From Pseudodesulfovibrio sp. S3 (GTDB lineage: Bacteria; Desulfobacterota; Desulfovibrionia; Desulfovibrionales; Desulfovibrionaceae), in the NCBI RefSeq assembly GCF_004025585.1, contig NZ_QTZO01000008.1:62001-126000 (forward strand): 64,000 nucleotides of DNA, written 5' to 3'. A program made the translations under genes and the position numbers. The notes below the pieces were generated by a model, which worked only from the letters and a program-made list of their open reading frames with translations, had not been told where the DNA came from and ran no database searches. Numbering within the stretch: the first letter of the stretch is position 1; each line of letters starts with the position of its first letter. Of the stretch, positions 25,030-40,332 are shown piece after piece.

Positions 25030-25330
25030 AATTGATTCTCTTGAACCATAATGAAACATGTCATGGAAGACAAGGTTGGCATGTGATCGGGTATGGGATA
25101 AAAATATGGATAATCCGGAAGGTCAGATAACTCGGGTTGTTGTGGAAAAATGTCGGATTGTATTGGATGCAGTCTCCTGTCGGGCATTGGCTGGACCAAA
25201 GCTGTATCATCGGGCAGACTGTTGCTCGTCTCATGTGATATGTCGGGATATTTGAAACGGTTGAGAACGTGTGTTGAAAGGATGCTGGAGCAGGGGGGCA
25301 TGCTTCCATGGGGTATGTTGTGAGAGAATC

Positions 25331-27037
25331 ATGTGCGGAATAGGCGGTCTTTTCAGGCCGGGCGGTGAGGGCCTGACCGGCTACCATGAGGCGATACTTG
25401 AACGGCTCATGGAAAACATGCACCTGCGCGGTCCCGACGGCTCGGGGCTGACCGTCAGGGGAGAGGTCGGCCTGGCGCATACCCGACTTGCCATCATCGA
25501 TGTCAACGAACGCGCCGGTCAGCCCATGGAATCTGAAGATTGGGTTCTGTCCTGCAACGGCGAGATTTACAACTACCGGGCCATCAAGGAAGAGCTTGTC
25601 GGACGGTACGAATTCAGGACCACCTCGGACACCGAGGTGCTGCTCATGGCCCTGCAGGAGTGGGGCATGGACACGGCCCTCGGAAAGTGCGCCGGGATGT
25701 TTGCCTTCCTCGCCTACAATAAGCGGGAGCGGGTGTTGTATGCCGCACGGGATCGGCTGGGTATAAAGCCGCTGCTTATGGCGTTGCTGGATGACGGCAC
25801 GTTTTGTTTCGCTTCGAGTGCCGGGGCCATTGTCAAGGCCACGCCGGACATTGACTGGCAGGTCTTCAAACCCGCCCTGGCATCATTTTTCGTCCTCGGC
25901 GCGCCCTTTACCCGAACCACGGTCTATGACCGGATAGAGCGGGTCAGCCCCGCCCATTATGTGCGCTGCCTGCCGGACGGCACTTTCGAGACGGTCAAGT
26001 ACTGGGAGCCTCGATACCGGCCGGGTTTTACCATGGACGACATGGTCTCCGTGGTCCGGGAGTATCAGGTTTCGGACGTGAAATCGGCCTTGTTCCTGAG
26101 CGGCGGGGTGGATTCCACCTTTCTGGCGGCAGCCATGGACAGCCTGGATTGTTTTCATCTGACTTCGCCGGAAACCCGGTACGCGAAAAACGCGGCAAAG
26201 GTCTTTGGCCGGAAATTTGTCTGCGTCACGCCGGATCTTGCCGACTACGAGACCGATGTCGAGCGGGTCATCGGTCTGCACGGCGAACCGCTGATGAGTT
26301 GCGGCATTCCCAATTCCGTGACCAGGGAGCTTCATGCAAAAGGGTATAAAATGGCCATCAGCGCCAACGGGGCCGATGAGCTGTTTCACGGATATTACCG
26401 GACGCTGTCACCTGAATATACACCGGATTATCTGCCTTTTCATGAACGGCGGACCTACAGGTTCCTGAATCAGCAGTTGGCGCATCTTTTTCGAAACAGT
26501 GACCATTTCCGTATTGAGGAACTGCAGGGGTATATCCCCACGCTCCGGGAGATCGGCAATGAAATCCTGGACAAGCTCTCCCTGCCGGATTTTTCCGTTT
26601 CGGCCAACCATCGCTGGCTGGAGCTGATGACCTATGTTCTTTTTGATCTGAACCCCACCCTTGACGCCGCCTCCATGGCCAACAGCGTCGAGGTCCGTGT
26701 GCCGTTCCTGGATCACCGTATCGTGGAGGGCGTCCTGTCCTGGCCTGCCGAGCGGTTGATAACAACCAAGTACGGACGCAAGTCGCCCATGAAGGAGTAT
26801 CTGGCGCAATACTTTCCCATGGCCTTTTTCAACAGGCCCAAGCTCGGATTCAGTATCTTCAGTGATCTGCTTGGAGATATCGAGGTCTTGGGCACAAAGG
26901 CCCTGGCCGCTGGAATGGAAACGGGGTTCATTACTGTCCAAGGCAAGGGTGAAGATGGAAATGCGCGTGACAGGAAATACCTTGGGCTATGTTGTTTTTC
27001 GTATGAAAAGTGGAAACAGTCTCTCAATTATGTATAA
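25331..27037 (+). CDS. asnB: Asparagine synthase (glutamine-hydrolysing) family amidotransferase
   Basis: Transfers ammonia from glutamine to an adenylated carboxylate. The N-terminal glutaminase starts MCGIGG with the nucleophile Cys2 exposed, then RGPDGSG, HTRLAIID and CNGEIYNYR. The synthetase domain has the PP-loop SGGVDST and the SANGADELFHGYYR segment. 568 residues. In a polysaccharide locus such enzymes often amidate sugar acids rather than make free asparagine, and this one starts the glycan island; the acceptor is unknown. The ribosome binding site is weak (GAGAGAA). Confidence 0.9.
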   Translation: MCGIGGLFRPGGEGLTGYHEAILERLMENMHLRGPDGSGLTVRGEVGLAHTRLAIIDVNERAGQPMESEDWVLSCNGEIYNYRAIKEELVGRYEFRTTSDTEVLLMALQEWGMDTALGKCAGMFAFLAYNKRERVLYAARDRLGIKPLLMALLDDGTFCFASSAGAIVKATPDIDWQVFKPALASFFVLGAPFTRTTVYDRIERVSPAHYVRCLPDGTFETVKYWEPRYRPGFTMDDMVSVVREYQVSDVKSALFLSGGVDSTFLAAAMDSLDCFHLTSPETRYAKNAAKVFGRKFVCVTPDLADYETDVERVIGLHGEPLMSCGIPNSVTRELHAKGYKMAISANGADELFHGYYRTLSPEYTPDYLPFHERRTYRFLNQQLAHLFRNSDHFRIEELQGYIPTLREIGNEILDKLSLPDFSVSANHRWLELMTYVLFDLNPTLDAASMANSVEVRVPFLDHRIVEGVLSWPAERLITTKYGRKSPMKEYLAQYFPMAFFNRPKLGFSIFSDLLGDIEVLGTKALAAGMETGFITVQGKGEDGNARDRKYLGLCCFSYEKWKQSLNYV

Positions 27038-27046
27038 GGTCGGCTG

Positions 27047-27703
27047 ATGCATGAAGTAGCACTGATCGGAGGTTTTTCGTCGAGCGGGTCGGCGTTGCTC
27101 ATGCATTTGCTGAGCAGGGAGAAGGGTCATCCCTGTCTGCCTGAGACCTGGTTGTTTGCCCTCGGCCAGTACCTGTTGGATTATAGTGGTCTTGATTACA
27201 AGTGCGAGGATTTGCGTTTGTCTCTTCTCAGGTTGGACACCAGGGCGAAGTTGCAAGAAGCCCCTGGGATGGAGCATAAGGCTGTTGACGAGATTCTTTC
27301 TGCCTACCGGGACTCATTTGCTTTTGCGCAGGACAGGTTGAGTGTGCCGGAATGTCTGTTCATTGAAAAAGCACCTGAGAACGTGTTTGCCTTCGACGTA
27401 TATCTGGCACGGTACCCCGAAGCCAGGGTGGTGGTCACGAGTCGGGATTCCCTCGGGGTGCTCCAATCGCTGATGCGGCGGGGTATTTCAATGCATGATG
27501 CCTGTCTCATTTGGTTCGGGCATGCGTATGCCGTTTGCGAGTTGATGCGCAAAAATCCTAATCTGGTTTTCCATTGTCCATACTCGCTGCTGACGGCGGA
27601 CTCCTTTTTTGATGACCAGCTTTCCCCCATTCCCCATGTCCCAGGCTCTTTGTTGACGCGGACTCTTCTCTCCAGACATGTCATGTGTGCGACCGGGTGT
27701 TGA
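27047..27703 (+). CDS. Sulfotransferase-family protein
   Basis: Likely transfers a sulfuryl group from PAPS to a glycan. The N-terminal GGFSSSGSALLMHLL matches the 5'-phosphosulfate-binding loop, and PEARVVVTSRDSLGVLQSLMRRG matches the 3'-phosphate-binding loop with the conserved Arg and Ser. 218 residues is short for the family (usually 250-300) and the C-terminus is abrupt, so activity is not certain. AAGG precedes the ATG. It starts 9 bases after the amidotransferase gene and its stop nearly touches the next gene. Confidence 0.75.
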   Translation: MHEVALIGGFSSSGSALLMHLLSREKGHPCLPETWLFALGQYLLDYSGLDYKCEDLRLSLLRLDTRAKLQEAPGMEHKAVDEILSAYRDSFAFAQDRLSVPECLFIEKAPENVFAFDVYLARYPEARVVVTSRDSLGVLQSLMRRGISMHDACLIWFGHAYAVCELMRKNPNLVFHCPYSLLTADSFFDDQLSPIPHVPGSLLTRTLLSRHVMCATGC

Positions 27704-27704
27704 T

Positions 27705-28883
27705 ATGCTGAAGTCGCCAATGTTCTTTTCTGTCCTAAAAAAGTGCGCCTGGCTTTTTGAGCGGTTCCTTCCCGCTTGTTGGTATCGTCCGCTGTATCGT
27801 TGGTGTCGGGATTTCTACGACAGCGTGATCATGGGGCAGACGCCCGATATGTCACCTTGTTGTTACCATACGCCGCCGGACGCAGAAGCGTACTCGCTCC
27901 ATGAGACGGTCCCGTCTCCCGAAGTGGTGCCTGTGCCCAGGCCCGATCATGCTGTTGCAAGAGCTCTCGCTGCTCCCACGGGACCGATGGTCCTATGCGA
28001 AGGCACCCTGTTTACTCCGGAAGTGCCGTTCGGTATCGACCGTGTTCGAATCAAGGCTTTGCTCAAGCCGGTCCGTACCCGATGTGAGTTGGTCATCTGT
28101 TGTGCCTTCAAGGGGCGTCATGACATCCTTGAACGGGTTATCCACGAATCCCTTGCAGGTCGGAGCGGGCAGGGTGTTCGCTGGATGCTTGCCGGGAGCA
28201 CGGAGGAGGATGTCCAGTTCATTAAAATGGTGGCTGCCAGAACCAACAAGGTGGCCGGTTTCGTCTGCGATAACGCTCCTCTCGGGCGGAAGTGGCAGAC
28301 TTGCGTGGAGTATGCTTATCATTATTATGACGCCAAGCTGTATGCCATTACCGGCAGTGATGATATCCTGTCAGGGAAGCTGCTTGAGTATGTTCTCGGA
28401 AAATATGCCTCGAATATGGCGTTGTTAAGTGAATTCGCGCCCGACTTGTATTGCGCCAACGAGTGGATCGTCTACAGCGCAGCAGGTCGGTACGATCCCA
28501 TGCTCCTGCGGTGTGCGTACAAATACGAAACAGCCTTTCAGCCTTTGGGCGCAGGGCGATTCTATTCCAGAAGATGCCTGGACAAGCTCGATGCGCATCT
28601 TTTCGACAGCTCCAGAGTGAGGGGGCTGGATACGTATGGTTTTGCCGCACTCAAGGCAATGGGAGGGAGGATCGAGTATTATGCCGTGGAGGACGGCCCC
28701 ATAGTGAGCGTCAAGGGAGCATGGGAGCAACTCAATTCCCTGGACGCCTTTTTCAAGGTAGAGACTCTGAGTCTCAACGAGTTTTCGTTCAAGGGATATC
28801 CGCTGCTGAAGGAATCGTTGCATGGCACTACGTTCAAGTATCTTTTCAAGCCGACCAACCTGGGTTTCCAGTTGTTCGATTGA
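27705..28883 (+). CDS. Probable GT-A type glycosyltransferase of unknown family
   Basis: Not firmly recognised. The central region (about 125-225) looks like a GT-A fold: strand ELVICCAFKGRHDILERVIHES, AGSTEEDVQFIKM, DNAPLGRKWQTCVEYAYHYY, then LYAITGSDDILSG, where GSDD would be the metal-binding DxD equivalent. No membrane helix or signal peptide is evident. I take the ATG at 27705, just after the preceding stop, giving 392 residues; an in-frame ATG at 27678 overlaps the sulfotransferase gene. It lies between the sulfotransferase and exporter genes, which supports a role in glycan assembly. Confidence 0.6.
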   Translation: MLKSPMFFSVLKKCAWLFERFLPACWYRPLYRWCRDFYDSVIMGQTPDMSPCCYHTPPDAEAYSLHETVPSPEVVPVPRPDHAVARALAAPTGPMVLCEGTLFTPEVPFGIDRVRIKALLKPVRTRCELVICCAFKGRHDILERVIHESLAGRSGQGVRWMLAGSTEEDVQFIKMVAARTNKVAGFVCDNAPLGRKWQTCVEYAYHYYDAKLYAITGSDDILSGKLLEYVLGKYASNMALLSEFAPDLYCANEWIVYSAAGRYDPMLLRCAYKYETAFQPLGAGRFYSRRCLDKLDAHLFDSSRVRGLDTYGFAALKAMGGRIEYYAVEDGPIVSVKGAWEQLNSLDAFFKVETLSLNEFSFKGYPLLKESLHGTTFKYLFKPTNLGFQLFD

Positions 28884-28916
28884 GAATAAGAACAGCAGGG
28901 AGTATAGGCTGTTGGC

Positions 28917-29702
28917 ATGCTGCATCTGACCAAGACATTGTTCGACTACAGGGAGGCCGCAGGCGTCCTTGCCAGGGTCAACCTGAAGACCACCGTGGCC
29001 ACCACCCGGTTGGGGTGGTTGTGGTGGATATTCGACCCGCTGGTCATGATGGGCATTTATTATTTCATGGTGAAGATCGTTTTCGACAGGGGAGGGGATG
29101 GGTATCATCTCTTTGCCCTGACCGGCATCGTTTCCTGGCAGTACTTTGCAAAGACCATCCAGTTGACTGCCACGACCCTGCACCGGAACAAGCAGTTGTT
29201 GACCCATACCAAGGTCCCGCTGGAGGTGTTCACGGTTGTTCCGCTCTTGATCCAGACGTTTTTTGCCCTGATCGGGTATGGAATCATCGTGGTCTGGAAT
29301 GCCCAGGGGATGACCGTCAACGTTCTGTATCTGTTTCCGATTCTGTTCGTCATGGGGCTTTTCGCCATGGCCTTCGGCGCTATCATGTCCATCTGTGTGG
29401 TTTTTTTGCCCGATGCCAGCAAGTTCATCGATTACGGTCTGCGGGCCGGATTTTTTATTACCCCTATTCTCTATCCTGCGTCGAGGATTGCCGAGAGCGG
29501 GAGAATCCCCGAACTGATGAAGGATATCCTGGCCCTGAATCCGATGATGTGGGCCATTACCCAGTTGCGCAACGTCATTCTCTACCGGACTCCGCTCGAT
29601 CTCGGCAGTTTTGTCCTATGGCTGGTCGCCGGAATGATCGCGCTCCAGTTGGCCATGGTTGTGTTGCGCATGAATCGTCAAAACGTCATGAAACATTTGT
29701 AA
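28917..29702 (+). CDS. ABC-2 polysaccharide exporter permease (Wzm/TagG-like)
   Basis: Membrane subunit of an ABC exporter for a lipid-linked glycan. The 261-residue protein has six hydrophobic segments and typical Wzm features: ARVNLKTTVATTRLGWLWWIFDPLVMM near the N-terminus (the amphipathic helix and first membrane segment), GIVSWQYFAKTIQ, KVPLEVFTVVPLLI and FFITPILYPASRI. The ATPase partner is encoded immediately downstream. The substrate is presumably the glycan made by the neighbouring glycosyltransferases. Confidence 0.9.
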   Translation: MLHLTKTLFDYREAAGVLARVNLKTTVATTRLGWLWWIFDPLVMMGIYYFMVKIVFDRGGDGYHLFALTGIVSWQYFAKTIQLTATTLHRNKQLLTHTKVPLEVFTVVPLLIQTFFALIGYGIIVVWNAQGMTVNVLYLFPILFVMGLFAMAFGAIMSICVVFLPDASKFIDYGLRAGFFITPILYPASRIAESGRIPELMKDILALNPMMWAITQLRNVILYRTPLDLGSFVLWLVAGMIALQLAMVVLRMNRQNVMKHL

Positions 29703-29751
29703 TATGCCTGAAATGCCGATGAAATCCGCCGTACTCCGCGAGGGAGAACAG

Positions 29752-30519
29752 ATGCGGCTGCAAGATGTGGCCTTGTTTTTTCGGCGCAGTGGCCGTTTTG
29801 CTTTCGGGCGCAACAAGCAATTGCGGAAATCCCGTAATTTCTGGGCCCTGCGTGGCATCAATCTGTCGCTGTACCAGGGCGAGTCCCTCGGGCTGGTCGG
29901 TCGTAACGGCTCTGGCAAGAGCACGTTGTCCAGAGTCTGCGCCGGGGTGCTCGTACCGGACCGTGGGCGTGTGCAAAGCAACGGGTCCGTGCATCTCCTC
30001 GCCCTTGGTGTCGGGTTCCGGCCGGAATTGACCGGCAGGGAAAACGTTCTTGTCAGCGGGATTCTTCTCGGCCTGTCGAGGCGGGAGGTTCTGGAACAGA
30101 TGGACGCCATCGAGGCGTTCGCCCAACTCGGAGATTTCATGGACGAACCGTTGGGCACCTATTCCAGCGGTATGCGCAGTCGCCTCGGGTTTGCCGTGTC
30201 AACGGCCATACGGCCGGATACGCTTATCCTGGATGAAGTCCTGTCTACTGGAGACGAGTCGTTCCGGTTGCGGGCCGAGGCGCGTATGGAAGAACTGCGG
30301 GCCGAGTCCGGCGCGGTCATGGTGGTTTCGCATAATGTCGGGCAGGTGAAGCGACTGTGTTCGCGTGCTCTCTGGCTTGAGCAGGGCACGGTCCTGATGG
30401 ACGGGAAAGCGGATCAGGTGCTCGACGCATACTCCGACTTCTGCACCGGTCCGGAAGGCTGGCTGAAGAGCCATCCGGAGCTGCTGGAACGTATCAACTC
30501 CTCCGGTGACCTGGGGTGA
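29752..30519 (+). CDS. ABC exporter ATPase (Wzt/TagH-like, short form)
   Basis: ATP-binding partner of the upstream permease. It contains Walker A GRNGSGKST, a Q-loop region GVGFRPELTGRENV, the signature TYSSGMRSRLGFA, Walker B LILDEVLSTGD and the switch VSHN. It ends soon after the ATPase domain, so it lacks the C-terminal carbohydrate-binding domain that some Wzt proteins use to recognise a finished chain end. I choose the ATG at 29752 because GAGGGAG precedes it; an upstream in-frame ATG at 29704 has no site. 255 residues. Confidence 0.9.
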   Translation: MRLQDVALFFRRSGRFAFGRNKQLRKSRNFWALRGINLSLYQGESLGLVGRNGSGKSTLSRVCAGVLVPDRGRVQSNGSVHLLALGVGFRPELTGRENVLVSGILLGLSRREVLEQMDAIEAFAQLGDFMDEPLGTYSSGMRSRLGFAVSTAIRPDTLILDEVLSTGDESFRLRAEARMEELRAESGAVMVVSHNVGQVKRLCSRALWLEQGTVLMDGKADQVLDAYSDFCTGPEGWLKSHPELLERINSSGDLG

Positions 30520-30541: not shown

Positions 30542-31708
30542 GTGACGCACACCATGACCGGAATCTCCAACGCCATTGTTTTGGGCGTACATTCCTTTGC
30601 CACGCCACATTACAAGACAGGTATCCAGTTTATTGCCGAAGGGCTGGCCCGCAGGGGGGTGTCCGTGGATTACGTGTCCGTGCCGTCTTCGCCTTTTGAT
30701 GTGTTCGGCAAGGAGCGCCGCCGTCGCATGGGGCGGGTCTGGGGGCGCATGGGACGTTCGCCCGTGCTTCATCCTGAAAAAAGGCTGTACGAATTCGCCT
30801 TTCCTGCACTCTTTCCCGTGCACCGGCTTTTCGTGCCCGGCTCCTTCATGCTTGGCGCAGTGAGCGGATCGGCGTCTGGCTGGTTCGCCTCCCGGCGATA
30901 CGATTTGTGTGTGCATGACGTCGGGCCGACCATGGTCTACATGCCTTTGGTGCAGGCACAGCGCCACATCCTGCGTTTGAACGACGCACCCCGTGGGATG
31001 GACGACTTGCCCGGCTCGCTGGTTCGTGATCTGGAGCATCGGTTGGGCCAGGGATTTTACGACCGAGTATGGGCGGTTTCCGAGCCTTTGGCGGCCCATG
31101 CGCAGCGGCTTGCGCCGGATACGCCTGTGGATTGCATTCCCAACGGCTTCGATGCCGAGCTGTTCGGTTGCCCGGCAGACAGGACGGGGCGTAAACCCGG
31201 CACCAGGGCCGTATATCTCGGCAACCGGACCGCATGGCTCGACGTGCAGCTCCTCCGGCAGGCCGCCGCATTGCTGCCCGATTGGGAATTTAATTGTGTC
31301 GGCGCGGGGTTCGCAGGAGAGTCGGATCGGGATAACCTTCGGTTCCTGCCACCCGTTTCCCATACGGAAGTCCCTGAGTTGCTTGCCGGATATGATGTCG
31401 GTCTGCTGCCGTATCGGGACGACGCCGCGCACATGGCCTGCGTCCGGCGGCCGCTCAAGTTTTATGAGTATGTGGCTGCCGGGTTGGGGGTGGCCTGTGC
31501 CGACGTCGGCGGGTTGCGCAAGGGACTGGAGGGCTGGGCTTTGTTCGGTACGACACCCGAGGAATTCGCCGGGGCCGTGGTCGGGAGCGAACAGGCGATC
31601 AGGGCGGTGCCGCCGGAAAGACGTGCGGCGTTCCTGAAGGACAATGCATGGAACGTCAGGCTGGACCAGATGTTCGGAACGCTGAATATGGTCAGGGCCG
31701 AAGGTTGA
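30542..31708 (+). CDS. GT-B glycosyltransferase
   Basis: Cytoplasmic glycosyltransferase of about 388 residues with a GT-B layout: an N-terminal domain (AIVLGVHSFATPHYKTGIQFIAEGLARRG), a linker VDCIPNGFDAELF and a C-terminal nucleotide-sugar domain (RAVYLGNRTAWLD, LRFLPPVSHTEVPELLAGYDVGLLPY, PLKFYEYVAAGLGVACADVGG). This resembles families GT1/GT4. The start is uncertain: GTG at 30542 has GGGGTG in front, ATG at 30554 and GTG at 30506 are alternatives. The 3' end overlaps the convergent minus-strand gene by 17 bases. Confidence 0.82.
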   Translation: MTHTMTGISNAIVLGVHSFATPHYKTGIQFIAEGLARRGVSVDYVSVPSSPFDVFGKERRRRMGRVWGRMGRSPVLHPEKRLYEFAFPALFPVHRLFVPGSFMLGAVSGSASGWFASRRYDLCVHDVGPTMVYMPLVQAQRHILRLNDAPRGMDDLPGSLVRDLEHRLGQGFYDRVWAVSEPLAAHAQRLAPDTPVDCIPNGFDAELFGCPADRTGRKPGTRAVYLGNRTAWLDVQLLRQAAALLPDWEFNCVGAGFAGESDRDNLRFLPPVSHTEVPELLAGYDVGLLPYRDDAAHMACVRRPLKFYEYVAAGLGVACADVGGLRKGLEGWALFGTTPEEFAGAVVGSEQAIRAVPPERRAAFLKDNAWNVRLDQMFGTLNMVRAEG

Positions 31709-32825
31709 GAACTGCTGTTTCGTAGATTTTGCTGACGGTTTGAGCTGTTCGGTCGATGGTGAACTCCGCTTCCAATCGGGTGCGGGCCGCCTGTCCGAAT
31801 CGGGCCCCCATGCCCGGGCTGCAGGTGATTTCCTGGATGGCTCGGGCCAGTGATTCCGGGTCTGTCGGGGGCACGACCCTGCCTGTCACGCCGTCTTCAT
31901 TGACCCAGCCGGTCCCGGAACCGGGAATGGCGGTGGAGATCAGGGGTAGGCCGTAGCGCATGGCTTCCAGCAGGCTCACGCCAAAGGCCTCGCCCCGGTC
32001 CACGGACGGCAGGCAGAACAGGGTCGCCTGTTGCAGGAGGCGGTGCAGGGTTTCATCCGGGACTGCGCCGGGCAGGCGTACACGGTCGGTCAGGCCGAGT
32101 CGGTCGACTTCGCGCTGAATGCCCGAACGTTCGGGGCCTTCGCCGACAATGACAAAATCAGCCGCCGAAACCCGGGATGCTGCACGGACAAGATGCTGGA
32201 ACCCTTTGTAAAAGGTGAATCTTCCTACGCCGAGGACTAACGGTCGCTCCGGTTTAGGGCAGTCCGGGACCAGGGTGTACCGGCTCAGATCGAGGCCTAG
32301 CGGGACAACAGTGCATTTGCGTTGCCAGCGGGCCAGGGAAAGACTCGATTCCAGGTAGGGAGGAGACGTGGCCATCACCCGGCAGGCCTTGGCCAGACAG
32401 CGTTGCTCAAAATAACGGTAGAGTGGATAGAGGGCGCGAAGGCTCCGGTTGGTGCTGTCCTGGACATCGGCATGCCAGTGGATGACCAGCGGGATGTCCG
32501 CGGGGAGCAGCGCGCCGAACAGGACCATCGGATTGGGCAGGTGGAGGTGGATGATCTCGGGGCGTGTGCGCCTGATGATTTTTTGCAGGTGCAGGGGAAG
32601 GACAGGTGAAAAGGGAGCAAAGGCCGCAGTGAACAGGATCGGGAGCCGGGTGGTGGTGACGCCTTGATCCAGATCGGTTTGCATGGGGGCGTCTGATTCG
32701 GCCTGATGACAGAGGATGCTGACGTCATGGCCCTGCCGGACCTGTTCCGCAGCCAGGTCCCTGACAAAGGTTTCGACCCCGCCCCTGACCGGGGGGGCGT
32801 ATTTGCTGATGTGCAGGATGCGCAT
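31692..32825 (-). CDS. GT4 family glycosyltransferase on the opposite strand
   Basis: Retaining glycosyltransferase of 377 residues with a GT4 pattern: MRILHISKYAPPVRGGVETFV (glycine-rich acceptor loop), IIHLHLPN, TVVPLGLDLSRY, LVLGVGRFTFYKGFQHLVRAA, RLPGAVPDETLHRLLQQATLFCLPS, and the EAFGVSLLEAMRYGLP motif (E-x7-E nucleotide-sugar site). The start at 32825 is set by MRILHISKY; the frame is open far upstream but without family character. It is the only minus-strand gene in the 25-39 kb island and lies between two plus-strand glycosyltransferases. Confidence 0.88.
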   Translation of the reverse strand: MRILHISKYAPPVRGGVETFVRDLAAEQVRQGHDVSILCHQAESDAPMQTDLDQGVTTTRLPILFTAAFAPFSPVLPLHLQKIIRRTRPEIIHLHLPNPMVLFGALLPADIPLVIHWHADVQDSTNRSLRALYPLYRYFEQRCLAKACRVMATSPPYLESSLSLARWQRKCTVVPLGLDLSRYTLVPDCPKPERPLVLGVGRFTFYKGFQHLVRAASRVSAADFVIVGEGPERSGIQREVDRLGLTDRVRLPGAVPDETLHRLLQQATLFCLPSVDRGEAFGVSLLEAMRYGLPLISTAIPGSGTGWVNEDGVTGRVVPPTDPESLARAIQEITCSPGMGARFGQAARTRLEAEFTIDRTAQTVSKIYETAVLNLRP

Positions 32826-32916
32826 TTCAATTCTGCTGGTTACGCGAGTCAGTGAGGGCAGGCAAGCCCGGACCGGGATTGCGCTCTGTGCACGGATGGT
32901 GGATGATGGGCGACAA

Positions 32917-34020
32917 ATGAAGAATATTCTGATCAATGCATTGCCGATGACGGTCGTGGGCACCGGCATAGGCCGCTATCTGCGGGGGCTGGCCGGTGCT
33001 GTCGAGGCCGGATACGGCGGAGCCGTAAGGCTTTCCTATTTTGTCGGGGACCGTGTCGTGGATGAGCCTCCTGCCGTGCGGGGCGCGGGATGGCGGGAGC
33101 GTCTCGGGCAATTGTTGTGGCGGATGCCCCATCCGGTGGGGTACGGGGCCAGGCTGGTTCGTCACGCCTGGACAGAAAAATGTTTCAGGCACATTTGTTC
33201 CGGGTATGACGTGTATCATGAGGCCGGGTATTTTCCGTTCAAACCGAGCGAAAAAGTTCGGACCGTGCTGACCGTGCACGATCTTTCGCTACTGCGTTTT
33301 CCCGAATGGCACCCCAGGGAACGGGTCTGTTATGCTCAACGGTTCTTTCTGGAGCGTCTGGACTTGGTCGACGGGTTCTGCGCCGTGTCCGAATTCACCA
33401 AACGGGAGATGGTCGAGCATTTGTCCATTGATCCTGCTCGCATCATTGTCACCCCGCTCGGGTTTGACAATACCTTGTTCAACGAGGCGGACGACCCCGA
33501 GGCGCAAAAGGTCCTTGTCGGTGCCGGTATGCCGGAAAAATTCATTTTGTTCGTCGGTAGCGGTGATCCGAGAAAAAAACTTGATCTGGCTTTGGCTGCG
33601 CTGGAAAAGTCTCGGAATCCATTGCCGCTGGTGACGGTCGGTTGGAGCGGCTGGAGCAGGATGGATGCGCCAGGGGTTTTCAATATGGGGTACGTCACTG
33701 ACCGGGTGCTCGCCCAGTTGTATCGAAAGGCAGAATTGCTGGTTATGCCCAGTCAATACGAGGGGTTCGGGCTTCCCGTTCTGGAGGCCATGGCCTGCGG
33801 ATGCCCGGTGTTGACCTCTGATGCCGAAGCTTTGCTGGAAATCGGCGGGGATGCGGTCGAATCCGTGAGGGATGTGCGGGATGCGGACCTTTTCGCCCGC
33901 AGGCTTGACGCTCTCTGCGATTCGATTGCTCAACGGACACTCATGCGTGAGCGGGGCAGAAATCGGGCCCGTGAGTTCTCATGGGAAAGGACAGCCCGCA
34001 CCACTGTCGGGGCGTGGTGA
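32917..34020 (+). CDS. GT4 family glycosyltransferase
   Basis: Retaining glycosyltransferase of about 367 residues: N-terminal NALPMTVVGTGIGRYLRGLAG, TVLTVHDLSLLRFPEWH, AVSEFTKREMVEHL, IIVTPLGFDNTLF, FILFVGSGDPRKKLDLAL, NMGYVTDRVLAQLYRKAELLVMPS and YEGFGLPVLEAMACGCPVL (E-x7-E site). This matches mannosyltransferase-like GT4 enzymes. The start at 32917 has a poor ribosome binding site; 32896 is an alternative. It runs divergently from the minus-strand glycosyltransferase, with 91 bases between the two starts. Confidence 0.88.
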   Translation: MKNILINALPMTVVGTGIGRYLRGLAGAVEAGYGGAVRLSYFVGDRVVDEPPAVRGAGWRERLGQLLWRMPHPVGYGARLVRHAWTEKCFRHICSGYDVYHEAGYFPFKPSEKVRTVLTVHDLSLLRFPEWHPRERVCYAQRFFLERLDLVDGFCAVSEFTKREMVEHLSIDPARIIVTPLGFDNTLFNEADDPEAQKVLVGAGMPEKFILFVGSGDPRKKLDLALAALEKSRNPLPLVTVGWSGWSRMDAPGVFNMGYVTDRVLAQLYRKAELLVMPSQYEGFGLPVLEAMACGCPVLTSDAEALLEIGGDAVESVRDVRDADLFARRLDALCDSIAQRTLMRERGRNRAREFSWERTARTTVGAW

Positions 34021-34066: not shown

Positions 34067-34096
34067 TTGACATTGTGTGTGGTTATGGATTATTAA
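34067..34096 (+). promoter_or_regulatory. Probable sigma-70 promoter of the outer-membrane barrel gene
   Basis: TTGACA at 34067-34072, then an 18-base spacer and TATTAA at 34091-34096, in a markedly AT-rich stretch. It predicts a leader of about 60 bases before the GTG start at 34164. Confidence 0.6.
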
Positions 34097-34163
34097 CACT
34101 ATATATAGAGATTCTATTGTTTATGTAGTTGATTCTATTAATGTTTTTTGGAAGAGGTGCGTC

Positions 34164-35192
34164 GTGAAACGGATGGCCGTATTGTCTTTTGTTTTGTTGG
34201 GACTGTTTTTTGCCTCTGCGGCCTTTGCCGAAACGAACGGGCAGGAACAGGCGACCAGCGATATCGTACGGACGAGCAGTCAGGCCTTGACCACCATGAT
34301 TCAGGGGCGCGTGGCTACCATTGCAGCTCCCAGACCCGGCGGCCTGCAACAGACAGCCAATAAGAAGATCGATAAAAACGGTAATTTCGCTTTTTCCATG
34401 AATGCCGATGAACTGGGTCTCTCCTCTGGAGAAGACGGCAATTCCATTGGCATATGGGGCATGGGGTCGCTCATGCATTTCGAAGGTTCCTCCACCGGAG
34501 CCAAGTACGATGCCGAAGCCTACAACCTCATGGTCGGATTGGACTACAGGGCCACGCCGGATCTCCTGGTTGGTCTTGCCGCCGGATACGGCATCCTTGA
34601 TCTGGACAAGAAGGATTGGAATGGAGGTGCGGACACCGGGACGCTCAAGACCGACCACGAATGGACCGTCATGCCCTATCTTGCCTACAACTTCACTGAT
34701 TACACCATCCTCGATGCGGCCTTTGCCTATACCGACAGCCGGTACAAGGACGACGACGGGACCAACGTCGGCAGATATGATTCCAGCCGGTATCTGACCA
34801 ACCTGGGCATTTCACAATACTATGCAATCGACAATTGGATGCTGAGCGGTCGTCTCGGATACATGTACGTGCACGGCGACCTGTCCTCCTATTCCCGCGG
34901 CGGCACCAACATCGCCAACCCGGACAGCTATCTGGGCCAGCTCAATGCCGAAGCCAAGGCATCCTACTTCTTTGAGAGTGGAATCGAGCCCTACGCTGCC
35001 CTGAGGTATTTCTACGACACCAGCACTTCGGCCACGCCGGTCGACTCCGATTACGACGAATTCGAGGGATTGATGGGCCTGAACTGGTATGCCACCGACC
35101 AATGGATCGTCAATTTCGAGACCGGCGCCAGCCTCGGCAGGCAGAAGTTTGAAGCCTACCGCGGTCAGGTGAACATCCGCTACGAATACTAA
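34164..35192 (+). CDS. Outer-membrane beta-barrel protein, autotransporter-domain type without passenger
   Basis: Exported protein of 342 residues. The signal peptide is clear (KRMAVLSFVLLGLFFASAAFA, cut before ET). After a linker, residues from about 90 onward alternate hydrophobic and polar residues in many amphipathic strands (YNLMVGLDYRATPDLLVGLAAGYG, WTVMPYLAYNFTDYTILDAAFAY, YLTNLGISQYYAIDNWMLSGRLGYMYV), ending in the aromatic FEAYRGQVNIRYEY expected of a barrel C-terminus. No large passenger domain is present. The start is a GTG with GAGG upstream. It has its own promoter and terminator inside the glycan island. Confidence 0.82.
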   Translation: MKRMAVLSFVLLGLFFASAAFAETNGQEQATSDIVRTSSQALTTMIQGRVATIAAPRPGGLQQTANKKIDKNGNFAFSMNADELGLSSGEDGNSIGIWGMGSLMHFEGSSTGAKYDAEAYNLMVGLDYRATPDLLVGLAAGYGILDLDKKDWNGGADTGTLKTDHEWTVMPYLAYNFTDYTILDAAFAYTDSRYKDDDGTNVGRYDSSRYLTNLGISQYYAIDNWMLSGRLGYMYVHGDLSSYSRGGTNIANPDSYLGQLNAEAKASYFFESGIEPYAALRYFYDTSTSATPVDSDYDEFEGLMGLNWYATDQWIVNFETGASLGRQKFEAYRGQVNIRYEY

Positions 35193-35214: not shown

Positions 35215-35247
35215 AGGGGGGTGGCTTGCGGCCACCCCCTTTTTTTT
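35215..35247 (+). terminator. Terminator after the outer-membrane barrel gene
   Basis: Stem AGGGGGGTGGC/GCCACCCCCT with a loop of about 5 bases, followed by eight T residues. Confidence 0.9.
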
Positions 35248-35301
35248 ACCGGGTGTTCGAATAGGTTGTCAGTCAAATGTTTTTCGGGGTAGTGGCATAG
35301 C

Positions 35302-36027
35302 ATGTACGACTATGGAAAAGTGGCAGTGATACTGCCTGCGCTCAATGAGTCCGTGACCGTTGGTTCGGTGGTTGACGGTGCCTTGCGTCACGGATGTGAC
35401 GTCTATGTCGTTAACGACAACAGTGCTGACAATACATCGGAGAAAGCCTTGGAAGCCGGGGCGCAGGTCTTGACCCTGCCATTCACTTCCGGTGCCTGGA
35501 ATGCCATACAAACCGGTATCCTCTATGCCGTGAAGCTGGGCAAGTACGAGTATTTCCTGACAATGGACGCTGACGGACAACACGATCCGGAAAGTATTCC
35601 TGCATTGGTGGCCTGTATTGAATCCTCCCATGCGAATGTCGTTGTCGGCAGTTGTCCCCTGCGCGGGAGCAGGGCCAGGCGGTGCGTCTGGAGCCTGTTT
35701 ACGCTCCTGACCCGGTTGAAAATCCGGGATATGACATCCGGGTTGCGGCTGTATGACAAATCCGCCGTAACGGCTGTTTTGACCAGGGAGGCGGCCATGT
35801 ATGATTATCAGGATTTGGAAGTGTTGCTTTTGCTGCGTCGCCGGAAGATGAAAATCGCTGAATTGCCCGTGGTCATGCATCCCAGAAGGGACGGGTCTTC
35901 CAGGGTGTACCGATCCTGGTGGGCGGTGGCGGATTATATGGTCAGGACCTGCATGGGAATAGTGGCGGATTGGGTCTCGGCTTCGGGCAGACGGGCTGGG
36001 GATTGGAGGGAATATGACTCCATATAA
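35302..36027 (+). CDS. GT2 polyprenyl-phosphate glycosyltransferase (DPM1-like)
   Basis: Probably moves a sugar from a nucleotide donor to polyprenyl phosphate at the cytoplasmic face of the membrane. The 241-residue protein has a GT-A fold with VILPALNESVTVGSVV, VVNDNSADNT, FTSGAWNAIQTGI and the DxD motif in TMDADGQHDPESIP, then DMTSGLRLYDKSAV. It lacks the two membrane helices found at the C-terminus of GtrB-type enzymes. The neighbouring DUF2304 protein may supply them. It is the first gene of an overlapping four-gene set ending in an oligosaccharyltransferase. Confidence 0.88.
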   Translation: MYDYGKVAVILPALNESVTVGSVVDGALRHGCDVYVVNDNSADNTSEKALEAGAQVLTLPFTSGAWNAIQTGILYAVKLGKYEYFLTMDADGQHDPESIPALVACIESSHANVVVGSCPLRGSRARRCVWSLFTLLTRLKIRDMTSGLRLYDKSAVTAVLTREAAMYDYQDLEVLLLLRRRKMKIAELPVVMHPRRDGSSRVYRSWWAVADYMVRTCMGIVADWVSASGRRAGDWREYDSI

Positions 36028-36400
36028 TGTGACCGCTGCGGTGATTTCACTTTTTTTCGTGGCTGTCATCCTGTTGCTTGTTCGGCGTCAGCGGCTGGGC
36101 AATCGCCACACCCTCTGGTGGTTGTGTACGGTTGCCGGTATGCTGGCCATCGGCCTTTTCCCGTCCATGGCCGACTGGGTCGGCACGAAGCTGGGCGTAC
36201 ACTATCCGCCTGTCCTGCCTATCGTCCTGGCCCTGTGTCTCATCTTCGTGAAGATTTTGACCATGGATATCGAATGGACCCGCCAGGAGTCCCGGATTCG
36301 GATACTGGCGCAGAAGATGGCGGCCTATGAGGCGGATATTCGTGAAATCAAGGCGATCCGTACCGGGGAATCCTCCACTGAAGACGAAGCTTCCCTGTGA
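36014..36400 (+). CDS. DUF2304 small membrane protein
   Basis: Inner-membrane protein of 128 residues with three hydrophobic helices (about 7-24, 35-52, 64-85) and a charged coiled-coil-like tail (RQESRIRILAQKMAAYEADIREIKAI). This is the pattern of DUF2304, commonly encoded next to polyprenyl-phosphate glycosyltransferases. It overlaps the upstream GT2 gene by 14 bases and the downstream hydrolase gene by 4. I infer that it anchors or partners the soluble GT2. Confidence 0.82.
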   Translation: MTPYNVTAAVISLFFVAVILLLVRRQRLGNRHTLWWLCTVAGMLAIGLFPSMADWVGTKLGVHYPPVLPIVLALCLIFVKILTMDIEWTRQESRIRILAQKMAAYEADIREIKAIRTGESSTEDEASL

Positions 36401-37293
36401 ACGGCGTGGGGCAGATCATGATCAATGGCAATGCTATCTCCTGGAATCGGACAGTCCCTTATCGGTTTGACGTGTCCGTGTTCGCGGTCGGGGTGCTTTT
36501 CCTGCTCTCGGCTGGAATCATTGTGTCCGGATGCGCCCGCAAGTTTCCGGTCCAATCTTTTTCCGGGGAGCACGGATTCACACAAGAGACGTTTTTGGGC
36601 GAAAACTTTGACCTGAAATGGTTTTGGCGAGGGCAGGGCGATGTCCTGCGCGTCTATATTGAAGGCGACGGCAAGGCCTGGCTTTCGCGTTCCCGTCCTT
36701 CCTCTGATCCAACCCCCGACGATGGTGCGGCTTTTCGGCTGGCCGCGGCGGATACCGGCACTGCGGTCATGTATCTTGCCCGCCCCTGCCAGTTCGTCGA
36801 GGGGGAGCAGGCAAGGAACTGCATCACGCCGTTCTGGACTTCCGCCCGCTTTTCCGAACCGGTCATACAGGATCTTTCCCTGGCCCTTGATGCCGCGAAA
36901 AGTCGGATCGGCGCCCGGCGTTTGGAGCTGGTGGGCTATTCCGGCGGCGGGGCCGTGGCCGTGCTGCTGGCTGCCAGGCGGGACGACGTGGACTTGATCG
37001 TGACCGTGGCCGGGAACCTGGACCACACCTTGTGGACGGAGATGCATGGCGTCTCGCCCTTGCGCGATTCGCTGAATCCGGTGAATGTTGCACGTGGCGT
37101 GCAGGGTATCAGACAGGTCCATATTGTCAGTGTTGACGACGAGGTCGTTCCGCCTGCGGTGGTTGAAAGCTATGTGCGGGCCATGACCGATACCAATACG
37201 GTGCGCATCGTCACGGTGAAAGGCGTGGAACATGACGGTGATTGGCGGGAGGCCGTTGCCGCTGTCTTTGCTGACCAGGAGCCGGACAAGTGA
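36397..37293 (+). CDS. Membrane-anchored alpha/beta-hydrolase-like protein
   Basis: Protein of 298 residues. It has an N-terminal membrane helix ending in ILSAGIIVSGCARK-like sequence (actual LLSAGIIVSGCARK), which could be a lipobox with Cys at about residue 48 preceded by an unusually long charged region. The remainder looks like a periplasmic alpha/beta hydrolase with nucleophile motif GYSGGGA, a late Asp (SVDDEVVPP) and a His (GVEHDGDW). The substrate is unknown; deacetylation or hydrolysis of a glycan is possible. The GTG start overlaps the DUF2304 stop; ATG at 36418 is an alternative. It is coupled to the oligosaccharyltransferase gene. Confidence 0.65.
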   Translation: MNGVGQIMINGNAISWNRTVPYRFDVSVFAVGVLFLLSAGIIVSGCARKFPVQSFSGEHGFTQETFLGENFDLKWFWRGQGDVLRVYIEGDGKAWLSRSRPSSDPTPDDGAAFRLAAADTGTAVMYLARPCQFVEGEQARNCITPFWTSARFSEPVIQDLSLALDAAKSRIGARRLELVGYSGGGAVAVLLAARRDDVDLIVTVAGNLDHTLWTEMHGVSPLRDSLNPVNVARGVQGIRQVHIVSVDDEVVPPAVVESYVRAMTDTNTVRIVTVKGVEHDGDWREAVAAVFADQEPDK

Positions 37294-39233
37294 TGACTTC
37301 TGGGCATCAACCCTTGCCGAAAACCTGGCTGGCCGGAGTCGTGTTTTGCGCGGTAATGATAACCGTGGTTTTGGCCGTGCACCACGGCAACCTGATGGCC
37401 GGGCAGGGGTTGCTCCGGGACAACGTTCCGATCGTGGGGAACAACGACGGCTATTTCTATCTCGATCGGGCAACTTCAATCGCTGCAGAGGGCCGGGGGG
37501 TTGCCGGAATTTTCACGGACAAACGGCAGTCCATGCTGTTGCCCTACCTGTTGGCGGCTGTAGCCGGAACCGACAGGAGTACACTGCATCTCATGGCAGC
37601 CTACATCGGGCCGGTCCTGAGCTTGTCCATGCTGCTGGCCGTGCTGCCGTGGGCCATGGAGTTCCGTTCCCGGTTCGTGATGGCGGCAGCCCCGATTCTC
37701 GCGCTCCTGGCACCGTACTGGATCGCACGCACGCACGTCGGTTTTCTCGACACGGACAGTCTGGTGCCGGGGCTGTGCTCTCTGTCCATGTATTGCCTGT
37801 TCAGGTTTGCTTCCGGCACGCGCAGACGTACTGTGTGGGCGCTGCTCTATGTCGTGCTTTTGGCCATCTTGTGGTTTTGGTGGCGACCGGGGGCGTTTTT
37901 AGTCGGCGGTTTTTTGTTCTGCTACCTGATCTATCCGTCATGGGCCCGGACCGATGTGCTGCTCAAGGGGGTGCTGGTTGGTGCCTTTGTGTGCGCTGTC
38001 GGATTGGCTGTGGCCGGGATCAGGCCGTTTTCGGAATATGGGGCCTATGTCTCGGCTCATCTGGGACTGGTCTTCGGCGGTACGGAGCAGGACCTGCTCG
38101 GCACCGCCATTCGCGAATTGGGCGGAGTGAGTCCGGGAATTTTGGGCCAAAAGACCCTGGGCAGTCCCTGGCTGTTGCTTCCCGTCGTGTTGGGGGCGGC
38201 GGGGTACTGCTTCCGGTATCGTTGGAAGGCGTTGTTTCTGATGTCCATGGGATGTTTTGGTGCAGCGAGCATGATTTCACAACGGTTCATTCCTTTGTTC
38301 GTGCCGGTTGCCGCCCTTTTGGCTGCCTACGGCGTGGCGCTTTGCGTGACCTGGGTGATCGGATTCTTCGCGCGTTTTCCAGGCGGTGAAAGCATGGCGC
38401 GCCCAGTGATGACCGTCGCCGGAATGGCGTTTCTGCTTACATGCGCCGCAAGGAACGCCGTGCACTATGAACCCGAGTCCTATTTCAGCAAGAGTGATTT
38501 TGTCCTTGCCGACACCGTCAGACGCACCCTGCCGCCTGAAACAGTCCTTTGGTCATGGTGGGATTACGGATATTTTCTGCAATATCTTACCGGGATGAAG
38601 ACGTTTTTCGACGGCGGTTCCCAGACGGAGGCGACCTGCTTCGTGGCGGCATATCCATTGATGCAGGAAGACCTGGCGCGTGCTTCAGCCTGGATCAGGC
38701 ATTACGCCTTTGCCTGGCCGAGACTCGACACGGGCATGCGTGGTGCGGGTTGGGACGAATATGTGACCTCGCTCACCGAAGGCTTGGGAGAAGATGATGG
38801 AGAGGCTTCAGTCGCGTTGGTGCTTCCGGCGCGGGTGAACACCACGGTCGGCTATCTTTATTCCTTTGCACATGTCTTTGATACGACCGTGCCGCCGGTG
38901 GCCAACCACTTGGATATATTCCCCAAGACAGGCTTTGCCTATGATGCCGATGCCCAGACAGTGGTGGTTCCCGAGGCCATGGTGGTCAAGGGCTACGACA
39001 GTGTCGGCAGTGTGCTGGATGCTACCGGAAAGGAACCGGGGCAGCTGGATTTCACGGCGCTCCCGGACCCGTATCTGGTCTTTTCACGCACCACGGACTT
39101 CCTGGCCGTGACGGACAGGGCGGTCATAGGGTCCGTGCTGTTCCGCTTGCTCGGTCTCTTTGAGTATGACCGCCATTCCTTTGAGCCGCTCTATTTCGAT
39201 TCGCGTTCAGGGGGTGTCTGGCTGGTGCGCTAA
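37293..39233 (+). CDS. pglB: PglB/STT3-type oligosaccharyltransferase
   Basis: Transfers a lipid-linked glycan to asparagine of exported proteins. The 647-residue protein has about 13 membrane segments and a periplasmic C-terminal domain. Diagnostic residues are present: NNDGY (Asp53), GFLDTD (Asp154/Asp156 catalytic-metal motif), a loop glutamate in TAIREL (Glu276), SQRFIP (Arg331 position) and the hallmark WWDYG (423-427) in WSWWDYGYFLQYL followed by FFDGGS. These match the C. jejuni/C. lari PglB pattern. PglB from D. desulfuricans has been shown to have oligosaccharyltransferase activity. It overlaps the hydrolase stop (TGATG). Acceptor proteins and glycan are unknown. Confidence 0.92.
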   Translation: MTSGHQPLPKTWLAGVVFCAVMITVVLAVHHGNLMAGQGLLRDNVPIVGNNDGYFYLDRATSIAAEGRGVAGIFTDKRQSMLLPYLLAAVAGTDRSTLHLMAAYIGPVLSLSMLLAVLPWAMEFRSRFVMAAAPILALLAPYWIARTHVGFLDTDSLVPGLCSLSMYCLFRFASGTRRRTVWALLYVVLLAILWFWWRPGAFLVGGFLFCYLIYPSWARTDVLLKGVLVGAFVCAVGLAVAGIRPFSEYGAYVSAHLGLVFGGTEQDLLGTAIRELGGVSPGILGQKTLGSPWLLLPVVLGAAGYCFRYRWKALFLMSMGCFGAASMISQRFIPLFVPVAALLAAYGVALCVTWVIGFFARFPGGESMARPVMTVAGMAFLLTCAARNAVHYEPESYFSKSDFVLADTVRRTLPPETVLWSWWDYGYFLQYLTGMKTFFDGGSQTEATCFVAAYPLMQEDLARASAWIRHYAFAWPRLDTGMRGAGWDEYVTSLTEGLGEDDGEASVALVLPARVNTTVGYLYSFAHVFDTTVPPVANHLDIFPKTGFAYDADAQTVVVPEAMVVKGYDSVGSVLDATGKEPGQLDFTALPDPYLVFSRTTDFLAVTDRAVIGSVLFRLLGLFEYDRHSFEPLYFDSRSGGVWLVR

Positions 39234-39253: not shown

Positions 39254-40246
39254 TTACTGGCGAATCCGTGGTCTGATAACGGGCTTGGGCTCGACAACGG
39301 GTGTCGGCGTGATGATGACCGGCTTGACCGTTGGCTGGGGGGCAACCACGGGGGCGGTGGGAGTGGTCATGGGCGCCGTCTTGACTGTTGGTGTTGCCGT
39401 GGGTGCTGTTTTAACCGTTGGCGTGGTCGTAGGGGCAGTCTTTAATGCCGGTGTTGTGGTGGTTTTTGTGTTTTTGAGCGTCGGCGTTGTGGTGGTCGTG
39501 GTTTGTTTCAATTCCTTTGTCGGCGTTTTCATCAGGGTCTTGGTGGGCGTTTCCTTGGCGGATTTGCCCGTCACGGCGGGGGCGGCCGATTCGGTCTTGG
39601 GTGCGGCCTTGGGAGCGGAGCCCAATCTCAGGATGCTGTTGAACATGGTCGGTGGAATGGCCGTGGGCTTGAAGATGATCCCGGTCACGGAGATTCTCGA
39701 CCTCAGCCCGCTTTGGGTGATGCGCAGGACCTGTTTGGCTGTCTTGATTTCCAGGGCATGGCTCGGCCCGAGATGCAGGGCGCCCGCTTCTTCGCCGTCA
39801 GGCTGGACTATGGAATAGACGTCGGACCCCCGTATGCCGATGGTGGCCAGGGGAGTCTGCATGTTGAAACCTTCTGGATTCGCCTTGACGATTTCGCCAG
39901 TGATCGCCCTGAATGTGCCTTGAGTAAACTTGAAGAGCAGTTCTGCGTTGGAGTCGTCGAAGACGTAAGTATCAATGGAAGCATGGCTGGATTCGTCGAG
40001 GGTGAGAGTCGTTTCATCCTTGAAGAGAACGCTCAGCTGCGCACCGGCACCGGTTTTCAGATCATCCTTGAGCATGATGGGCTGGTCCTGTTCGGCGTTC
40101 AGGGTTTTGTTTTCCCGGATGATCAGGCATTCACCGGTGGCTACTCGCACGGAGCCGACCTGATCGGTCGCCCATGCGGGCAGGGCCGACAGCATGATGA
40201 TCGCCAGCAGGGCCAATGACGGTATGAGCTTGTTTGTGTATCGCAT
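39254..40246 (-). CDS. FecR-domain exported protein with Thr/Pro/Lys repeat tail
   Basis: Protein of 330 residues with signal peptide (ending ALPAWA), a FecR domain (GAGAQLSVLFKDETTLTLDESS; GTFRAITGEIVKANPEGFNMQTP; TIGIRGSDVYSIV) and, after about residue 195, a low-complexity tail rich in Thr, Pro, Ala and Lys with ten-residue repeats. Such FecR proteins are stand-alone periplasmic or surface proteins, not necessarily linked to iron. The start at 40246 is chosen for the signal peptide; a GTG at 40291 is in frame but adds a polar extension. A paralogue lies at 59416-60327. Confidence 0.8.
   Translation of the reverse strand: MRYTNKLIPSLALLAIIMLSALPAWATDQVGSVRVATGECLIIRENKTLNAEQDQPIMLKDDLKTGAGAQLSVLFKDETTLTLDESSHASIDTYVFDDSNAELLFKFTQGTFRAITGEIVKANPEGFNMQTPLATIGIRGSDVYSIVQPDGEEAGALHLGPSHALEIKTAKQVLRITQSGLRSRISVTGIIFKPTAIPPTMFNSILRLGSAPKAAPKTESAAPAVTGKSAKETPTKTLMKTPTKELKQTTTTTTPTLKNTKTTTTPALKTAPTTTPTVKTAPTATPTVKTAPMTTPTAPVVAPQPTVKPVIITPTPVVEPKPVIRPRIRQ
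39353..39484 (-). repeat. Ten-codon tandem repeat in the FecR protein tail
   Basis: About four degenerate 30-base units encoding PALKTAPTTT / PTVKTAPTAT / PTVKTAPMTT and a diverged first unit PTLKNTKTTT. Copy number could vary by slippage. Confidence 0.75.
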
Positions 40247-40332
40247 GTCGTGTTTTGGTTGTTGGTATCCTGATGCATCCTTTTGAGACACTGTTTTGTT
40301 CAGATTTCTTTATATAACTATTTTTCCGTTTT

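Follow-up and report, generated by a model that had tools for sequence, protein, structure and literature searches.

The glycan donor of the Campylobacter jejuni pgl pathway is linked to undecaprenyl diphosphate (Und-PP). For the Campylobacter oligosaccharyltransferase (OST) ClPglB (3rce, 5ogl and 6gxc), the cited passages describe Y196 and R375 as contacting both phosphates of the carrier (PMC6215017), DGGK as a presumed carrier-binding motif, and WWDYG and DK/MI as forming the Ser/Thr pocket (PMC8342417). Haloarchaeal N-glycosylation by AglJ/AglB runs on dolichol phosphate (PMC4335974); in the passages cited, a family 2 glycosyltransferase (GT2) starts the chain on the lipid monophosphate, more transferases extend it, and an STT3-fold OST transfers it. 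In a further group (GacI/GacJ/GacL, EpaI/J, WpsA/B and PpgS/Rv3632/Rv3779), a GT2 and a small DUF2304-type membrane protein start a sugar linked to undecaprenyl monophosphate (Und-P). GacI, helped by GacJ (DUF2304), produces GlcNAc-P-Und, and elongation in the cytosol comes after priming by WpsA/B (PMC8327497); PpgS and Rv3632 produce polyprenyl-P-GalNAc, which is used by a later transferase (PMC9671496). Within the cited passages, which mention no STT3-type OST, the products of these systems enter polysaccharides. Here we describe an operon of Pseudodesulfovibrio sp. S3 in which such a pair is combined with an STT3/PglB-fold OST. It lies at 35302–39233 of a 64,000-nucleotide stretch (positions 62,001 to 126,000 of contig NZ_QTZO01000008.1), hereafter the window.

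We put a probability of about 0.5 on the operon being the core of a dedicated protein-glycosylation cassette, in which an Und-P-linked glycan made by the GT2-DUF2304 pair and a family 4 glycosyltransferase (GT4) is moved by the OST onto an exported protein. The operon contains the following genes:

35302–36027, forward strand: GT2 glycosyltransferase of DPM1/PpgS/AglJ type, 241 aa (PF00535, E 5e-18)
36014–36400, forward strand: DUF2304 membrane protein, 128 aa (PF10066, E 1.3e-21), a likely GacJ/Rv3632-like partner of the GT2
36397–37293, forward strand: lipoprotein alpha/beta hydrolase, 298 aa, with lipobox cysteine C46 and triad S182/D248/H279
37290–39233, forward strand: predicted short-class STT3/PglB-fold OST, 647 aa (PF21436 above cut-off)

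Successive genes overlap by 14, 4 and 4 bases. A first reading made from the sequence alone, without database searches (the sequence-only reading), had proposed that the four overlapping genes form one unit, which coordinates, domains and overlaps bear out.

The oligosaccharyltransferase and its class

The OST profile matched ClPglB (3rce) with an E-value of 3e-61. The predicted model, built from 18 sequences (pLDDT, the predicted local distance difference test, of 89), is closest in structure to ClPglB 6gxc (Z 34.4, root-mean-square deviation 4.0, 599 residues, about 16% identity when structurally aligned), with Z up to about 29 for AglB and eukaryotic STT3 and 17–20 for ArnT, Pmt and AftA. 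Features of the STT3/AglB/PglB family present in the OST are a fold across the transmembrane and periplasmic domains, two DxD motifs, the TIxE glutamate and WWDYG. The alignment places the following sites (all on the forward strand):

37440–37454, forward strand: NNDGY, with D53 equivalent to ClPglB D56
37749–37757, forward strand: DTD (154–156), the second DxD
37884–37886, forward strand: R199 at the position of ClPglB Y196 (diphosphate contact), unconserved within the short class
38115–38117, forward strand: E276, equivalent to ClPglB E319, in the TIxE motif
38556–38570, forward strand: WWDYG (423–427)
38610–38624, forward strand: DGGSQ (441–445), replacing DGGKH

The key sites named in the sequence-only reading (NNDGY, DTD, the glutamate and WWDYG) do align with ClPglB catalytic positions, as do R147, D154, D156 and R332 (equivalent to R375). 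The OST shares with ClPglB the full-length fold, the metal site, the TIxE glutamate, WWDYG and the R375 equivalent. Unlike ClPglB, it is without DGGKH and Y196, its MI motif is unseen (the alignment is weak there), it is paired with GT2 and DUF2304, and PglC was not found in its genome. It scored 53.4 bits against the PglB equivalog NF050801 (cut-off 1300), and DGGSQ stands where the DGGK motif of a PglB was looked for.

For comparison we used 149 genomes of the bacterial family, drawn from a larger group. The window OST was matched in 67 of them, with many matches confined to the core region; near-full-length matches (at 43–57%) were found in four genomes besides its own. In the tree, 24 protein rows stand apart from ten rows of the family's ordinary PglB and three intermediates (support 98/99), which places the window OST in a divergent "short" class distinct from ordinary PglB. 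By match strength this class covers 17 genomes; the tree puts G051 on the ordinary side and leaves 16. The ordinary Desulfovibrio-type PglB, the kind tested in the cited part of PMC4894442, belongs to the same protein superfamily and bacterial family but forms a separate clade. Both classes are found within some genomes (e.g. G148), and the S3 genome has a single STT3.

Among the 24 short-class rows, D53, D154, E276, R332, W424, G427 and Y428 are invariant, and R147, D156, W423 and D425 are each missing in one row. The carrier-related positions differ. At the position of ClPglB Y196, 10/10 ordinary rows have H as compared to a mixture (R, K and others; H in 2/24) in the short class, and the DG[G/A][K/R/Q]H of the ordinary rows (10/10) is replaced by a DGGSQ-like motif, with Q in 22/24 and the DGGK lysine position occupied by S in 18/24 and otherwise by M, L, R (2) or N. 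The Ser/Thr-pocket MxxI (MI motif) was unseen at the aligned place across the short class, where the alignment is weak. The short class thus retains the metal and acceptor-activating residues, and its changes fall on positions with a known contact or presumed binding role for the Und-PP carrier in PglB.

Some loci carry unusual arrangements of OST genes. In G065 (L040:5049-12517), two tandem short-class genes adjoin an ordinary-type OST gene. L041:719-7662 contains two short-class OST-like stretches, the second within an open frame of about 2000 aa that is possibly a fusion. At L141:7119-12422, an intermediate-type Aquificota OST is flanked on each side by a pilin-like open reading frame (motif match only).

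The GT2-DUF2304 pair and the search for an initiator

DUF2304 was found in 19 of the 149 genomes (including G057 and G019, both under the curated cut-off), namely 15 of the 17 with short-class matches (15/16 by the tree) versus 4 of the 132 others (Fisher 3e-15). Neighbours were counted at 24 short-class loci, a different set from the 24 protein rows; the duplicate loci L038, L046, L128, L129, L136, L137 and L138 were counted once, and three loci (L126, L131 and L135) are on contigs that are short or cut. The ten ordinary rows correspond to nine loci, with L040:5049-7286 left out as it shares its locus with short-class genes. GT2, DUF2304 and STT3 genes are found together at 14 loci of 13 family genomes, plus L127, L130, L133 and L135. 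G111 has GT2 alone beside the OST, and G023 and G027 have neither partner there. The pair was found at none of the nine ordinary PglB loci.

The operon has the GacI/GacJ-type arrangement, with the DUF2304 membrane protein encoded after the GT2. Hydropathy shows no membrane segment in the GT2 and about three in the DUF2304 protein. The best NCBIfam matches of the GT2, the only one of its type in the S3 genome, are PpgS (NF058614; 83.6 bits versus a cut-off of 370) and AglJ (TIGR04182; 61.4 versus 325), and it matched the P. furiosus DPMS structure 5mlz with E 1.7e-10. By analogy, the pair is likely a GacI/GacJ- or PpgS/Rv3632-like Und-P sugar synthase. The haloarchaeal system differs from this locus in its domain of life, in its dolichol carrier and in AglJ itself, given that the window GT2 falls far under the AglJ equivalog cut-off. 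A search by title and abstract start, which covered few subscription journals, returned no paper on a DUF2304-linked OST; the DUF2304 literature it did return deals, in the parts cited, only with Gram-positive wall polymers.

The sequence-only reading had placed the initiating phosphoglycosyltransferase elsewhere in the genome. An HHHFE motif and its neighbours set MraY apart from WecA. Searches of the S3 assembly, a 43-contig draft, did not bear the proposal out: PF02397 (PglC-type initiator) had no match, as compared to its presence in 121 of the 149 family genomes; the phosphoglycosyltransferase of G139, from the same genus, had no match either (an empty match that alone shows little); and the sole PF00953 gene is MraY by sequence and by the adjoining MurF. 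No recognised initiator was thus found in the assembly, and GT2 and DUF2304 are likelier to take the first step than a phosphoglycosyltransferase.

The 27–34 kb genes of the window had been proposed to supply the glycan, which holds in part. Eight upstream proteins were compared with the short-class and ordinary loci. Two of them are glycosyltransferases:

31692–32969, reverse strand: GT4 glycosyltransferase (PF00534, E 4e-34), with the true start probably internal (MRILHISKYAPP, ~32.8 kb)
32716–34020, forward strand: second GT4-type glycosyltransferase (PF00534, E 1e-22), less often conserved with the cassette

Relatives of the first (164–543 bits) are near 19 of the 24 short-class loci, and its best match in the nine ordinary loci has 47 bits. 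The five short-class loci where it is missing are L039, L045, L126, L131 and L135, the last three being the short or cut contigs. The glycan is therefore probably longer than one sugar. Relatives of the second glycosyltransferase (289–578 bits) are near 5/24 loci, those of the ABC ATPase near four (L033, L035, L043 and L045) and those of the ABC membrane protein near two (L043 and L045), whereas the AsnB-like, sulfotransferase-like and remaining upstream genes hardly recur. In the window, the AsnB-like, sulfotransferase-like and ABC-2 exporter genes (25271–30519) make up a polysaccharide-type cluster, in a genome with no detected initiating phosphoglycosyltransferase.

A candidate route to protein glycosylation

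In the route that we propose for the cassette, DUF2304 would hold the soluble GT2 at the membrane and stimulate it, the GT2 would load the first sugar (probably N-acetylated) onto undecaprenyl phosphate, and the conserved GT4 would extend the chain. The lipid-linked glycan would then reach the periplasmic face, perhaps via the ABC exporter at 28.9–30.5 kb, where the short-class OST would transfer it from the Und-monophosphate carrier to an exported protein. Such a donor would be Und-monophosphate-linked as in archaeal AglJ/AglB, unlike the Und-PP-linked donor of Campylobacter PglB, so that PglC or WecA would be unnecessary. The targets would probably be proteins of, or exported by, a linked secretion module, which here would be an autotransporter barrel and the lipoprotein hydrolase (the latter acting outside sugar assembly) and elsewhere a type II secretion system and large lipoproteins. 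The full mechanism, in which an STT3-fold OST works with a GT4 and with a synthase pair for the lipid-monophosphate sugar, all linked to secretion modules, seems to us evenly balanced between right and wrong.

At 6 of the 24 short-class loci (L036, L127, L040, L044, L045 and L049), the neighbours include two or three of the genes for GspF, GspE and GspD, as compared to type II secretion genes at none of the nine ordinary PglB loci. In L045 and L049, the cassette is inside a gsp cluster with pseudopilin-like open reading frames and a large lipoprotein. These neighbours favour exported proteins as acceptors. No type II secretion genes were found in the window. Pfam scans of neighbours gave no family for queries in L042 (4/4), L039 (2/3) and L044 (2/2); such blanks mean little, since two of the L042 queries and one of the L044 queries are antisense to genes. 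Separately, in a type II secretion cluster, L044:1191-8268 encodes three tandem paralogous lipoproteins (~680–700 aa) directly 5' of GT2-DUF2304-STT3.

With a changed carrier motif, and perhaps a changed Ser/Thr pocket, the acceptor may differ from the N-X-S/T sequon. A more specific version, which we rate as less likely than not, is an OST class that draws its glycan from the undecaprenyl monophosphate of its own GT2-DUF2304 pair and targets proteins of the linked type V or type II module, maybe at sites other than N-X-S/T. An example of such an acceptor may be the Thr/Pro-rich tail of a neighbouring FecR-domain protein. The gene for the latter (39254–40291, reverse strand) is convergent to the operon, and its Thr/Pro/Lys-rich tail is a possible O-glycosylation substrate; the G139 relative (L033:11573-12508) likewise has a Thr/Pro-rich tail.

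Several observations weigh against the proposed cassette. The phosphate-contacting Arg equivalent to R375 is kept, and the 18-sequence model cannot show donor preference. A classical Und-PP pathway would account just as well for the GT4 and exporter neighbours. PF02397 genes are present in each of the 15 other short-class genomes, so the argument from a missing initiator draws on one draft genome. In L040, an ordinary-type OST shares the locus with two short-class genes and a GT2/DUF2304 pair. The secretion link is not general, because no GspD N0 domain was found in the S3 genome. Lastly, the barrel protein encoded next to the operon (34077–35192) has one N-X-S/T site, which is inside the barrel.

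Some of these observations also speak for the classical PglB route, in which an Und-PP-linked oligosaccharide, made by an unrecognised initiator and the 27–34 kb genes, is transferred to Asn-X-Ser/Thr, with the GT2 adding only a side sugar. ClPglB is the nearest OST fold, ordinary Desulfovibrio PglBs function in E. coli together with the pgl pathway of C. jejuni according to the cited part of PMC4894442, and PF02397 genes are present in the other short-class genomes, as are GT4 relatives near most loci and exporter relatives near a few. We nevertheless consider this route rather unlikely, as the S3 genome has no PF02397 gene and PF00953 only as MraY, the carrier-binding positions are altered in the short class, and all nine ordinary PglB loci are without the linked GT2 and DUF2304.

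More doubtful still is that the OST is an Und-P-sugar-dependent GT-C transferase acting on a glycan or lipid (lipopolysaccharide or capsule) instead of a protein. Polysaccharides are the target of GT2, DUF2304 and GT-C systems elsewhere (cited parts of PMC8327497 and PMC9671496), a polysaccharide-type cluster lies 5' in the window, and the Ser/Thr-pocket MI motif was unseen in the weakly aligned region; against these stand the TIxE glutamate, a complete OST-type C-terminal domain carrying WWDYG, the Z of 34 for PglB versus 17–20 for ArnT, Pmt and AftA, and the secretion-gene neighbours in several genomes.

The locus suggests a route to sugar-coated proteins, in a sulfate-reducing bacterium, that is unlike the textbook bacterial one. 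If the proposed cassette is real, bacteria would have an OST route that starts from a sugar on a lipid monophosphate, as the cited passages describe for archaea; it would also mean that an OST can be linked to one particular secretion module and that compact protein-glycosylation cassettes can do without a phosphoglycosyltransferase. The short class would also offer natural variants for asking which residues select mono- versus diphosphate carriers.

Autotransporter barrel and lipoprotein hydrolase

The conserved unit exceeds the four genes, as an autotransporter-barrel gene lies directly 5' of them:

34077–35192, forward strand: autotransporter beta-barrel protein, 371 aa by the first start (PF03797, E 2e-15, 57.7 bits versus a cut-off of 26)
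35215–35249, forward strand: terminator-like hairpin and T-tract between the barrel gene and the GT2 gene

The barrel gene is followed by the same four genes in G139, G007, G093 and G148 (L033–L036) and in L127, and the order in G054 and G077 is hydrolase-barrel-GT2-DUF2304-STT3. Barrel relatives with 61–68% identity are directly 5' of the operon in L033–L036, and others adjoin it in L037, L118 and L127. The window barrel has a short stub before the barrel and hardly any passenger, i.e. no extended secreted one. As an evident Asn acceptor it was rejected for the place of its sole sequon. Barrel proteins adjoining an OST have 330–403 aa by open frame and likewise hardly any passenger, as compared to 554–1801 aa in 9 of 12 loci (368–412 aa in the other 3) for barrels adjoining the hydrolase without an OST.

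The hydrolase has only sub-cutoff Pfam matches, and its best PDB sequence match has E 0.02. Its model (pLDDT 91) is a clear alpha/beta hydrolase that resembles generic esterase folds (Z ~20), and in a 31-sequence alignment the Ser-Asp-His triad is invariant and the lipobox cysteine is kept in at least 90%. It was found in 36 of the 149 genomes, 25 of which have no short-class OST. The association with autotransporters was examined for 32 of 41 hydrolase matches (8 were not included, and 1 is a weak second G148 match inside L036), using a barrel profile seeded partly from hydrolase neighbourhoods. A barrel was present within 8 kb in 22/32 (and at ~13 kb in L039) as compared to about 0.4 expected from the zero to six autotransporters per genome among the matches listed; G081 was entered with one autotransporter though absent among those matches, which slightly raises the expected value, and the Poisson value is no clean probability because the genomes are related. 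No barrel was found near the hydrolase in 9/32 (L090, L094, L099, L101, L102, L103, L105, L106 and L122). A short-class OST is in 11 of the 32 neighbourhoods, and a barrel is in 12 of the other 21, at least 9 of these 12 being Pfam-confirmed (L100, L108 and L109 are not among the matches listed).

Since the hydrolase is mostly beside autotransporters, it is probably an autotransporter-module protein, which would have joined the cassette in this lineage. Linkage to the OST does exist in relatives: the hydrolase is within the OST neighbourhood in 11 of the 16 short-class genomes. The role in trimming the glycan or carrier suggested by the sequence-only reading now looks doubtful, and deacylation of a lipid-linked or protein-linked sugar is improbable, given the 25/36 hydrolase genomes without a short-class OST, the barrel in 12/21 neighbourhoods without an OST and the examined neighbourhoods of 5/16 short-class genomes without the hydrolase, even though five family genomes and L127 have the gene directly between those for DUF2304 and STT3 and the PpgS pathway includes a deacetylation by factors left unidentified in the cited part of PMC9671496. 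The locus also offers an initial genomic setting for a lipoprotein hydrolase family that is uncharacterised.

Given the hairpin between barrel and GT2, the barrel gene is probably on its own or a more strongly expressed transcript. A hairpin was found at the equivalent position in six related loci (L033–L037 and L118), with a weak T-tract in L037; those of L034 and L035 are nearly alike, and the others differ in sequence.

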